Shown here: piece after piece, positions 12,619 through 15,742 of the stretch
How positions within the stretch are numbered: position 1 is the first letter of the stretch
Layout of the letters: each line of letters opens with the position of its first letter
Assembly: GCA_021813685.1 (NCBI GenBank)
Contig: JAKAJS010000205.1
Coordinates: 1 to 61,963 of the forward strand
Length of the DNA stretch: 61,963 nt
Reading direction: 5' to 3'
Origin: Deltaproteobacteria bacterium
GTDB lineage: Bacteria; Desulfobacterota; Syntrophobacteria; Syntrophobacterales; Syntrophobacteraceae
Program-made: the position numbers and the translations under genes
The notes under the pieces: generated by a model
The model's database searches: none
What the model was told of the DNA's origin: nothing
What the model saw: only the letters and a program-made list of their open reading frames with translations

Positions 12619-13218
12619 TCAAGAAGCTGACCCGGAGCCTTTTTTTATCTCCATTCCGACGCTGAAGGCTTTCGCGATCTCCTCTCCGAGAGCGCAATAC
12701 CAGTTCTCTTTGTTGACACCGGGAGTATAGGCGAACGGCCGGATCTTGTGGACGTCGGGTTCGCCCGCGGTGAGGCAGTCCTCTGAGACATGGGTCTCGG
12801 TAATCTGTCCCACGACCAGCGCATGAGTGCCCAGATCCAGTACGTGAATCACCTTGCATTCCAGATTCACCGGGCATTCCCTGATGAGCGGAGCGGTCGC
12901 CGAATGACCGTAGAATACAGTGAAGCCGCACCTGGCGACCTTGTCTTCCCTGGCCCCGGAAAAAATGCCGCAATAGTCGGTTTCCTTCACCTGATCGACG
13001 GATGGCACGTTAACGGAAAACGTTCCATTCTCCCGTATGCCTTTCATCGTGTGGCGATTGTGTCGAACCGCGACCGTCAGCATGGGGGGATCGCTGTTTG
13101 CTATGCCGCCCCAGGCGACAGTCATGAAGTTCGGATTTCCATCGACAGTGGCGCCGACCAACAGGGCCGGCATGGGATAGAGAAGCGTCTGGGGGCCCAA
13201 AGTCACTTTTGGTGTCAT
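12619..13218 (-). CDS. Flavin reductase-like FMN-binding protein
   Basis: A 199-residue protein of the flavin reductase (FMN-binding split barrel) family. The start MTPKVTLG is chosen at 13218 because AAGGAG stands 7 bases before that ATG; the longer frame upstream runs through the tRNA-Pro gene. Characteristic features are LLVGATVDGNPNFMTVAWGG and SDPPMLTVAVRHNRHT, which line the flavin site, and NGTFSVNVPS. Such proteins transfer hydride from NAD(P)H to flavin or act as flavoredoxins in anaerobes. Convergent with yccF. Confidence 0.85.
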   Translation of the reverse strand: MTPKVTLGPQTLLYPMPALLVGATVDGNPNFMTVAWGGIANSDPPMLTVAVRHNRHTMKGIRENGTFSVNVPSVDQVKETDYCGIFSGAREDKVARCGFTVFYGHSATAPLIRECPVNLECKVIHVLDLGTHALVVGQITETHVSEDCLTAGEPDVHKIRPFAYTPGVNKENWYCALGEEIAKAFSVGMEIKKGSGSAS

Positions 13219-13357
13219 TTTACAACTCCTTTTCCCGAAGGCGTCATGAGCAAAGCACACCGGCCGGACCGAATTCGAGACTCTATAAAAAAAAAAGGAG
13301 ATACTCACCCGCATAGATGAGTTCCCCATATCCGCCGACAAAAGTATCCTGATGGAA

Positions 13358-13432
13358 TCGGGACGAGCCGATTTGAACGGCCGACCTCTTGCACCCCAAG
13401 CAAGCGCGCTAACCAGGCTGCGCCACGTCCCG
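13358..13432 (-). tRNA. tRNA-Pro (anticodon GGG)
   Basis: The minus strand folds into a standard cloverleaf: acceptor CGGGACG with CGTCCCG, D stem GCGC, anticodon stem CTTGC with GCAAG around loop TTGGGGT (anticodon GGG), variable loop AGGTC, T loop TTCAAAT. It is 75 bases including the discriminator A; CCA is not encoded. No integrase or attachment duplicate is visible beside it. Confidence 0.92.
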
Positions 13433-13541
13433 ATAACAAAACAGACTAGCATCATGAAGGCAGCTAGTCAAGCTCAATAACGGTCCAGCAGTCGCAGGCC
13501 GAATAACCGAGTCGAGGAAGGCTCCCGTTCCAGGGCAAAAG

Positions 13542-14030
13542 TCAGTTCGTAGCCCTGGCGCCTGAAATTGCCTGCTGTTCTATAGGGTGTGCGATAATCT
13601 CGACCGTACCCACCTCGTAGGCTACCTGCCCTGCCGCGACAGTCTGCCCGATAAAGCAGTTGTCGCGCGCCTCGACTGCTGCGGCCCGGTACTCCTCGAG
13701 CCGGGCACGCTCGCCCCCGTGGACCGTCGGGTTAACGATGATCCTGGCATAGCGGTCATTCTGAGGATGACCGGTCACGATCCCCTCGGTTTTGATGGCA
13801 AGCTCCGTTACAGCGAGACGTTTCCTTTGCAGGTAGTAAAGAAGTGTAAGGCTGTAACATGCAGTGACCGCGCCGAGTAAAAGGGTCTCCGGGCTCATGC
13901 CGACCCCCTTCCCCCCCATTGTCGCGGGGACGGAGTAGCGTATCGTTTCGCCGTTGGCGGTGATCGCCCCCTCACGGTCTTTTCCACTACCGTGAACGAG
14001 CGCATCTATCGTAAAGCTGAGATCTGCCAT
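13542..14030 (-). CDS. OsmC family peroxiredoxin-like protein
   Basis: A 162-residue OsmC/Ohr-type protein. The two redox cysteines of the family are present, in TACYSLTLLY and ARDNCFIG, and the GMSPETLLLGAVTACYS segment is typical of OsmC. These proteins reduce organic or fatty-acid hydroperoxides in the cytoplasm. RBS GGAGG lies 7 bases before the ATG. It is divergent from the selenocysteine flavoenzyme across a 359-bp spacer, so the two redox genes could share a control region. Confidence 0.85.
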   Translation of the reverse strand: MADLSFTIDALVHGSGKDREGAITANGETIRYSVPATMGGKGVGMSPETLLLGAVTACYSLTLLYYLQRKRLAVTELAIKTEGIVTGHPQNDRYARIIVNPTVHGGERARLEEYRAAAVEARDNCFIGQTVAAGQVAYEVGTVEIIAHPIEQQAISGARATN

Positions 14031-14389
14031 GGTTTGCCTCCGTTATTTCGTATTCACTGCTTCCGCCGCTCAAACTTATAAACGCAACAGGCTGTATTTA
14101 CTAATAATACTTTAATCATCGTTACACTGCCGAACAAAATATCCTTCACTACCAACTGCTTATTTTATTCTTCACCACGTTGCGGAACCTTGCCGGGGAT
14201 TGCTCGTCTATCCGGGGCGCTAACCGCAGGTTGTCCCTCAGGTGAGTATGAATGTGACGCCGAAGCGAGAGTTTTTAGGGAAACGCCCTATTGCATGTTG
14301 ACCGCCTTAGCATTAGAGAAGTCTGGATTTAGGCCGCTTTATGCTTTGCTGAGTCTGCCCGGCAGGACCCCCGGAGGGAGCGAATAACC
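14031..14389. other. Divergent spacer between osmC-like gene and selenoprotein gene
   Basis: 359 bases without a gene, noticeably more AT-rich than the flanks in its left half (about 14080-14180). It should hold the promoters of both divergent redox genes, but I see no clear -35/-10 pair or operator. GGAGGG at 14373-14378 serves the plus-strand gene. Confidence 0.4.
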
Positions 14390-15742
14390 ATGAGAGAACG
14401 GCTTGTTGTGATCGGAGGGGATGCAGCAGGGATGAGCGCCGCCTCTCAGGCGCGCAGGATACGATCCGATCTGGATATCCTTGTTTTGGAGCGCGGCTCT
14501 CAGACCTCCTATGCCGCTTGAGGAATCCCCTACTATGTCGGCAGGATTGTCGACAGGCCCGAGATGCTGGTAGAGCGCGCCCCCGAAACCTTCCGTCAAA
14601 AGCAAAATATCGATGTACGAATCCGTCATGAGGTCGTAGGCCTGGATCTCTCAAGACAAAGGGTACAGGTTGAACAGGCGGAAAACGGTAAATCTTCCTG
14701 GGAGTCTTTCGACCAACTACTCATCGCCACGGGAGCTTCTCCCCTATGCCCGGATGTTCCCGGCAGCCACGCCTCCGGAATCCACGGGGTCAACACTTTG
14801 GATAGCGGAATCAGGATCCGCCAGGTCATAGAGCAGAAGAAACCGAAAAGGGCCTTGATCGTCGGGGGAGGCTACATAGGCCTCGAGATGGCTGAGGCAT
14901 TGGTGCGACAGGGCCTTTCCGTTGCGTTGATTGAAAGGTCCTCGGAGGTGATGAATACACTGGACACGGATATGGGGGCGCTCGTCTCGGACGCATTGCG
15001 CCGAATCGGGGTAGAGCTCTTTGTAGAACAATCCCTGCAGGCGTTCGAGATCAGTGGAGGAGAAGTATCTGCAGTCGTAACGGATAAACAGAACATTCCA
15101 GCAGACATGGTGATATTGGGCATGGGTGCTCGCCCCAACTCAGACCTTGCGGCGAAGGCCGGCATCCCTTTGGGTGAAAAAGGTTCGATCAGGGTAAACG
15201 AGAAGATGCAAACCGATGTGGAGAAGATATGGGCAGCCGGGGACTGTGCCCAGACGTTTCATCTCGTGAGCCGCAGGCCTTTTTATATGCCGCTCGGCAC
15301 CGTGGCGAACAAACAGGGCCGGGTAGCCGGCATCAACCTTGGCGGGGGCAACGCCGCTTTCCCGGGGGTGGTTGGAACGGCCGCATCCAGGATCTGCGAT
15401 CTGGAGGTCGCCCGTACGGGTCTCATGGAAAAGGAAATAAAGCAGCTGGGGATAGAGTATGCGAGCGCAACCATCAAGAGCCGCACGCGAGCGGGGTATT
15501 ATCCGAATTCCGGCGGTATAACGGTTAAGCTGCTTGCGGAGAAAGCAAGCGGCAGACTGCTCGGGGGGCAGATCGTGGGGGCTGAAGGATCTGCCAAGCG
15601 GATAGACATAATTGCGATCTCCCTTCACGCAGGCTTTGGTGTAGACCAGATGATCAACCTGGACTTGAGCTATGCGCCTCCTTTTTCCATCCCCTGGGAC
15701 CCGGTAGTCATTGCAGCGCGAAATTTGGTTAAACTCCTATAG
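14390..15742 (+). CDS. CoA-disulfide reductase/NADH oxidase-like flavoenzyme with UGA-encoded selenocysteine
   Basis: Read from ATG 14390 through an in-frame TGA at 14519-14521, this is a 450-residue pyridine nucleotide-disulfide oxidoreductase. The FAD motif VIGGDAAGMSAAS begins at residue 8. The TGA is codon 44, in SYAA-Sec-GIPYYVG, where relatives have S-x-A-x-C-G-x-P-Y-Y; the single catalytic cysteine of CoA-disulfide reductase is at residue 43 or 44. The NAD motif IVGGGYIGLEMAEA and the C-terminal dimerisation domain with YYPN and YAPPF tyrosines are intact. A SECIS-like hairpin follows the UGA. Ordinary gene calling would start at 14564 and lose the FAD site and active site. A plain nonsense mutation is the alternative, but its exact position makes that unlikely. 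Confidence 0.88.
14530..14562 (+). promoter_or_regulatory. Bacterial SECIS-like hairpin
   Basis: Downstream of the UGA at 14519-14521, TGTCGGC (14536-14542) pairs with GTCGACA (14549-14555), one G-U pair included, closing a six-base loop AGGATT. The loop has G at its second and third positions and starts about 21 bases after the UGA, within the range of bacterial SECIS elements recognised by SelB. The hairpin lies inside the coding region, as expected in bacteria. Confidence 0.7.

Follow-up and report, generated by a model that had tools for sequence, protein, structure and literature searches.

An in-frame UGA at the catalytic position of a CoA-disulfide-reductase-like flavoenzyme gene and its probable reading as selenocysteine

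In the 61,963-nucleotide stretch of DNA that was analyzed here as a whole (the window), the gene for a predicted flavoenzyme is crossed by a TGA at the codon where homologues carry their catalytic cysteine. This raises the question of whether the TGA marks a damaged gene, is read as an ordinary amino acid, or specifies selenocysteine (Sec). We consider it very probable that the locus holds one intact gene, with SECIS-directed Sec at residue 44 of an oxidoreductase of the CoA-disulfide reductase (CoADR) group.

The UGA codon and its reading frame

The read-through translation shows the TGA to be the sole in-frame stop on the forward strand between the ATG and the TAG that closes the frame (Table 1). 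The residues around it read S40-Y-A-A-U44-G-I-P-Y-Y, and both the read-through and the alignment bear out the preliminary description, which had placed the TGA at exactly codon 44, the position of the homologues' catalytic Cys, in a coding frame that is intact on either side. Automatic annotation had been expected to truncate the gene to 14564-15742, at the cost of its FAD-binding and redox sites, and this is indeed the only frame in the conventional ORF list, without the FAD-binding N terminus and the redox residue. By eye, nothing resembling the GGAGGGAG that precedes the ATG was seen upstream of 14564, and GGAG occurs within 20 bases upstream of the start in 19 of the 21 copies of the lineage that includes the window gene, here called clade A (counted by eye). 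Since ordinary ORF calling cuts the gene and strips it of its active site, a redox selenoenzyme that occurs here in at least seven families is easily overlooked.

Table 1. Features of the locus in window coordinates
Feature	Position	Strand	Basis
CDS of predicted Sec-containing CoA-disulfide-reductase-like flavoenzyme, ATG to TAG, 450 residues	14390..15742	+	Read-through, Pfam, NCBIfam, AlphaFold model
UGA codon 44, redox-active Cys position, almost certainly read as Sec	14519..14521	+	TGA at aligned codon in clade-A copies; TGC/TGT in Cys homologues
Predicted bacterial SECIS hairpin, 7 bp, loop AGGAUU	14536..14555	+	Pair counts, Cys-homologue columns, synonymous constraint, recoding control
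Shine-Dalgarno-like GGAGGGAG, 9 bases before ATG 14390	14373..14380	+	Read directly
Tyr370 codon, first of putative active-site Tyr pair	15497..15499	+	Orthologue counts; faces Tyr of 3cgb
Tyr428 codon, second of putative Tyr pair	15671..15673	+	Orthologue counts; faces Tyr of 3cgb

The UGA at the catalytic position is conserved. A TGA at the aligned codon is found in 21 clade-A copies from seven families of the phylum, the window gene included (checked locus by locus), and the other 20 show 55-85% identity. Of 55 genomes of the class, 10 (its own included) gave a match at E ≤ 1e-125, each with TGA. Of 395 genomes of the phylum, 25 gave a match; TGA stands in 17 of these, and the other 8 have no stop there and carry TGC or TGT. 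As at most four candidates were scored per genome in the phylum searches, these counts hold only for matches at the stated E-values. Within the genus the gene is patchily distributed, occurring in 2 of 11 genomes. A scan of named genomes yielded 10 loci (L009-L018). One of these, L009, belongs to the MAG 'Deltaproteobacteria bacterium isolate DX1.bin82'; it carries TGA, is 85% identical, and apparently lies on the same contig as the congeneric copy L020 discussed below. In L010-L013 (53-60% identity; entries titled Chloroflexota, Bacteroidales, Flavobacterium, and Spirochaetes), the codon is TGC or TGT, and so it is in the more distant L014. Thus, instead of the codons scattered over close homologues without a hairpin that had been envisaged as counterevidence, we find TGA and a conserved hairpin in the close relatives, whereas the distant or scattered ones carry Cys and lack the hairpin.

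Conceivably, the TGA is a nonsense mutation or a sequencing error in a decaying gene. The truncation in the ordinary ORF list would fit this, as would the closest relative, a congeneric copy (L020/L082 in genome G001, 85% identical) that keeps the UGA and the hairpin and stops at codon 417, losing its last 34 residues, including Tyr428; no convincing continuation was found in the 14 kb of sequence covered. Decay is difficult to reconcile, however, with a TGA at the identical codon in the 20 further copies, with a conserved hairpin, and with purifying selection that is similar on both sides of the TGA. The full frame is under selection, with a dN/dS between the two congeneric copies of 0.191 for codons 1-43 and 0.180 for codons 45-416. 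We regard a nonsense mutation or error as exceedingly improbable.

The hairpin downstream of the UGA

A 7-bp hairpin had been proposed 14 nt after the UGA, and it was located there as UGUCGGC-AGGAUU-GUCGACA. Its stability in the single sequence is ordinary (z, -0.85; 34 of 200 shuffles fold equally well), and the minimum-energy folds of two other copies, L022 and L104, differ from the hairpin. Single-sequence folding energy, for which an additional run had used plain shuffles, was discarded as uninformative for proving a SECIS. What raises the hairpin above chance is comparative evidence.

Across 19 distinct Sec sequences, 99.2% of the stem cells are paired, and in 12 cells both sides of the pair have changed. 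None of 500 shuffles was as high on pairing, doubly changed cells, or covariation score, but two of the five measures, namely, pairs with a double change and further pair types, were not above the shuffles (361 and 470 of 500). Five of the seven stem pairs are invariant, and the covariation therefore rests on the two basal pairs. With the structure slid by +3 columns, pairing was 73.7% and the covariation score 0.214, compared to 0.260 in place. In the same columns, 12 Cys homologues have 50.0% of cells paired (86 of 500 shuffles as high), and their pair types and covariation score are also high (15 and 13 of 500 shuffles as high).

Synonymous codon use points in the same direction. In 20 Sec copies, synonymous-codon identity at codons 48-54 is 0.80 versus 0.426 gene-wide, the top of 443 seven-codon windows, and hairpin codons 49-56 show zero synonymous change in four of the six pairs compared. 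Eight Cys orthologues show no peak there; 329 of their 440 windows rank above the one that begins at codon 49, and 234 above the one that begins at codon 50. Because the protein is also conserved at the hairpin, the genes were randomly recoded with synonymous codons while the protein was kept fixed. The 20 Sec genes form 6.95 of 7 pairs versus 5.14 expected, and the 12 Cys genes form 3.50 versus 3.47 expected (Cys rows L010-L013 were given even codon weights). The fractions for single sequences range from 0.009 to 0.20 and, since the sequences are related, are not to be multiplied. The hairpin 3' of the UGA is conserved, and on this comparative evidence it qualifies as a predicted SECIS.

Selenocysteine machinery and genomic context

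Genes of the Sec machinery are present in the genome. It contains a tRNA-Sec (74 bits; reported by ARAGORN as tRNA-SeC with anticodon tca), SelB (366 bits), and SelA (621 bits), the window and the sel genes lying on different contigs of an assembly that is 97% complete with 6% contamination. Among the four genes that the preliminary description had suggested looking for, selA, selB, and selC (tRNA-Sec) were thus recovered, including selC and selB, whose absence had been named as an argument against Sec, but selD was not found above the cut-off in this assembly (best match, 80 of 125 bits). SelD exceeds the cut-off in 38 of the 40 genomes searched, among them all 10 other genomes of the genus, so that an assembly gap is the likely cause. 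The selD copies listed for these congeners have a TGA of their own. Tests of 30 genomes detected tRNA-Sec in 29, the sole miss being a Sec-form genome (G110); since all eight Cys carriers of the phylum have this tRNA, finding it does not tell Sec forms from Cys forms. In one clade-A genome, a second tRNA-Sec-like match of 57 bits, over the family cut-off, lies at G026:C26:182762-182851.

A scan of the window for read-through frames with one TGA listed several candidates, that at 14519 among them. The open frame alone would also allow the UGA to be read as another residue (Trp, Cys, or similar) through global recoding or a suppressor. Such a reading is highly improbable, given that the Pfam-supported neighboring ORFs end in ordinary TGA stops (12619-21, 13542-44, and 15817-19), that the TGA sits in a Cys column, and that tRNA-Sec and SelA/SelB are present together with a conserved hairpin. 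Pseudogene, sequencing error, and global recoding were all rejected on the conserved TGA, the two-sided selection, and the TGA stops nearby.

Sec is the reading of codon 44 that we hold to be almost certain. By inference from sequence, SelB and tRNA-Sec would decode the UGA under the direction of the SECIS hairpin 14 nt downstream.

The neighboring osmC-like gene had been taken to fit a peroxide or disulfide stress role, a suggestion that did not stand up. The gene (13542-14030; Pfam OsmC, 49.8 bits) is divergent, on the opposite strand, and no osmC homologue was found among the ORFs near 10 other TGA loci, nine of clade A and one of clade C (ORFs of ≥90 aa, TGA not read through, blastp E ≤ 1e-10). 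It therefore provides no evidence for a peroxide role, which was rejected in this form. The neighbors that do recur, DnaG-like, sigma-70-like, zinc-ribbon protein, and NIF3-like genes, do so inside family f2 only, and the window and L082 share two downstream ORFs; none of the recurrent neighbors points to a function. Consensus promoter and terminator scans gave chance level only. At its 5' end, a flavin-reductase-like ORF on the reverse strand (12619-13455) overlaps a tRNA-Pro gene on the same strand (13357-13433), and translation thus probably begins downstream of the listed start.

Predicted activity and possible repeated exchange of Sec and Cys

The product would be a pyridine-nucleotide-disulfide oxidoreductase of the CoADR group, its putative fold being assigned from Pfam (Pyr_redox_2, 220.6 bits; Pyr_redox_dim, the dimerization domain, 61.4 bits) and phmmer matches of the read-through protein. 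The top NCBIfam model is TIGR03385 (CoA-disulfide reductase), with 470.1 bits, below its curated cut-off of 578.8; two further CoADR models, PRK09564 (434 of 458 bits) and PRK13512 (278.4 of 394 bits), and the model for H2O-forming NADH oxidase, NF046103 (247.2 of 600 bits), likewise stay below theirs. There is no rhodanese domain among the Pfam matches, and the protein ends at residue 450. By sequence, the nearest solved relatives are the NADH oxidase 6ruz (top match; E, 1.2e-111), presumably a Thermus enzyme, the Bacillus class I pyridine nucleotide-disulfide oxidoreductase 3cgb, presumably the CoA-disulfide reductase of Bacillus anthracis, and the CoADR 5l1n; NoxA-3 (6pfz) is also among the solved-structure matches.

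The alignment to 3cgb spans residues 5-445. Residue 44 faces a Cys, and Tyr370 and Tyr428 each face a Tyr, at chain positions 78, 403, and 461 (hand count), which, with a 36-residue offset based on the natural length of the protein, would be its catalytic residues Cys42, Tyr367, and Tyr425. The role of the active-site Tyr pair is known in characterized CoADR. All 20 Sec orthologues have Tyr370, as do 4 of the 8 Cys orthologues; Tyr428 is present in all 8 of the latter and in 19 of the 20 Sec orthologues, L020 ending upstream of that position. With a single redox Cys/Sec, the putative active-site Tyr pair, and no rhodanese domain, the protein has the features of the CoADR type. Like 3cgb, it has one redox residue and a Tyr pair, located in Y-Y-P and S-Y-A-P-P; unlike 3cgb, and unlike 6ruz, the highest-scoring solved relative, it has Sec in place of Cys. 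The CoADR family assignment made at the outset holds, with TIGR03385 as the best model, though below its cut-off. An AlphaFold model with Cys at position 44 reached a mean pLDDT of 89.5 and a pTM of 0.86 as the best of five (70.8 to 89.5), with residues 429-431, the loop after Tyr428, poorly defined.

Analogy with the CoADR group makes it most likely that the protein uses NADH and FAD to reduce CoA-disulfide or (per)sulfide, Sec44 being the redox residue. NADH would reduce FAD, which in turn would reduce Sec44 to the selenolate. The latter might then attack the S-S bond of CoA-disulfide, CoA-persulfide, or polysulfide, giving a Sec44-S intermediate (a selenenylsulfide) that would be reduced again through FAD, while Tyr370 and Tyr428 of the partner subunit in a presumed dimer may protonate the leaving thiolate. 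We lean slightly toward CoA-disulfide or persulfide as the substrate class. According to PMC7969121, enzymes of this group reduce small molecules with a catalytic Cys located at the si face of FAD, and the substrates of CoADR/Npsr are CoA-linked disulfide or persulfide and polysulfide. Npsr of Archaeoglobus fulgidus, as presented there, belongs to the same FAD-domain family and uses CoA, a catalytic Cys, and persulfide/polysulfide substrates, but it has a C-terminal rhodanese domain that is absent from the window protein (PMC7969121). From the deltaproteobacterial label of the one named close relative, we assume that the carriers live anaerobically in the presence of sulfur compounds.

A less likely but serious rival is that the enzyme acts mainly as an NADH peroxidase or oxidase, in which Sec44 would remove H2O2 or O2 via a selenenic acid. 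The H2O-forming NADH oxidase model scores 247 of 600 bits versus 470 for the CoADR model, the CoADR Tyr pair is present, and no oxidative-stress neighbor recurs in the compared loci. In Npx, the N-terminal loop carries a His, which the corresponding loop here, G-G-D-A-A-G, does not. Chemically such an activity would make sense, as selenolates react fast with peroxides and Npx and Nox cycle through a cysteine sulfenic acid. The top solved relative, 6ruz, was also deposited as an NADH oxidase, and the Sec form goes by 'NADH oxidase' in older tables (PMC1794560, PMC2398784).

Sec-containing NADH-oxidase-like proteins had indeed been reported before, as the preliminary description noted. Selenoprotein tables list an FAD-dependent oxidoreductase (CoA-disulfide reductase, NADH oxidase) with WP_011365774.1 as reference (PMC9312934), and the same Sec family is tabulated with TIGR03385 and the motif UGxP (PMC13188914). 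An 'NADH oxidase' with one Sec copy is among the tabulated selenoproteins of Geobacter metallireducens (PMC1794560), and the GOS set lists a Sec 'NADH oxidase' once (PMC2398784). The Sec flavoenzyme of PMC12013277 is a different one (COG1252, Ndh). The window gene is very probably a member of this already known selenoprotein family: the enzyme family is that given for WP_011365774.1, Sec would take the place of the catalytic Cys, and UGIP fits UGxP. Where the tables, as far as they go, hold single reference or count entries, we find 21 genomes, a conserved hairpin, and Cys orthologues mixed in. The predicted Sec form is here conserved among related bacteria along with its RNA signal. Some clade-A members depart from strict UGxP, with USIP in L099, UAMP in L104, and UAVP in L106 and L108.

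On a 33-row tree, four Sec/Cys changes are needed. The same query brought up further paralogues in the genome of the window; those examined include L049-L052, which are Cys forms, and L053, which has TGA. The latter (L053/L115; G000:C144:23220-24575; motif VRUALPHVV) represents a second Sec lineage, clade B; it is 28-30% identical to the window gene, has its TGA at the same catalytic column, and carries the hairpin AGUGGCC-GGUCU-GGCCGCU. Clade B has matches at E ≤ 1e-100 in 9 of 395 genomes, five Sec and four Cys forms. A third Sec lineage, clade C (L029 and L124-L132, from family f5 genomes; motif UPTPYYIGDVI), gave 10 matches in 54 genomes of the class, every one with TGA, and shows the hairpin UUACAUC-GG(U/C)-GAUGUAA shortly after the UGA. 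The Sec stems of clade B form 6.4 of 7 pairs versus 5.0 expected and its four Cys forms 4.0 versus 3.59, and those of clade C form 8.0 of 8 versus 6.49; clade B covariation was no better than shuffled.

A 72-row tree resolves clades B (98/93) and C (100/100) as one group each and mixes clade A with Cys forms, with four changes. Only three Cys/Sec changes are forced by the starred branches, and the tree came with a long-branch warning, so that it leaves room for other numbers and directions of change. L028 was kept in the 33-row tree and left out of A2, the synonymous-identity analysis, and the paralogue and 72-row trees; L013, with a TAG in frame at query residue 127, was kept in A3 and left out of all trees; and L014 and L050 were left out of the 72-row tree.

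We see an even chance that, within one phylum, the CoADR superfamily swapped its redox Cys and Sec repeatedly, giving rise to at least two and perhaps three Sec lineages, A (mostly UGIP), B (UALP), and C (UPTP), each with its own post-UGA hairpin and with A and B together in the genome of the window. If so, clades B and C would each represent a selenoprotein subfamily that has yet to be described, and selenium-dependent CoA or sulfane-sulfur chemistry would be a recurrent need of these bacteria. The motifs of clades B and C did not appear in the passages cited above, nor was a paper on these clades among those listed by searches of open-licence literature, in which look-up by motif covered PMC13188914. 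As tRNA-Sec is kept in all eight phylum genomes with Cys orthologues, the Sec and the Cys form occur side by side in bacteria able to use Sec, and such natural Sec/Cys pairs amount to a natural experiment on the benefit of selenium in a single-residue flavoenzyme.

One clade-B Cys orthologue, L120 (G339:C55), forms 6 of 7 stem pairs versus 4.43 expected (fraction, 0.1), and its stem may be left over from a recent Sec-to-Cys change.
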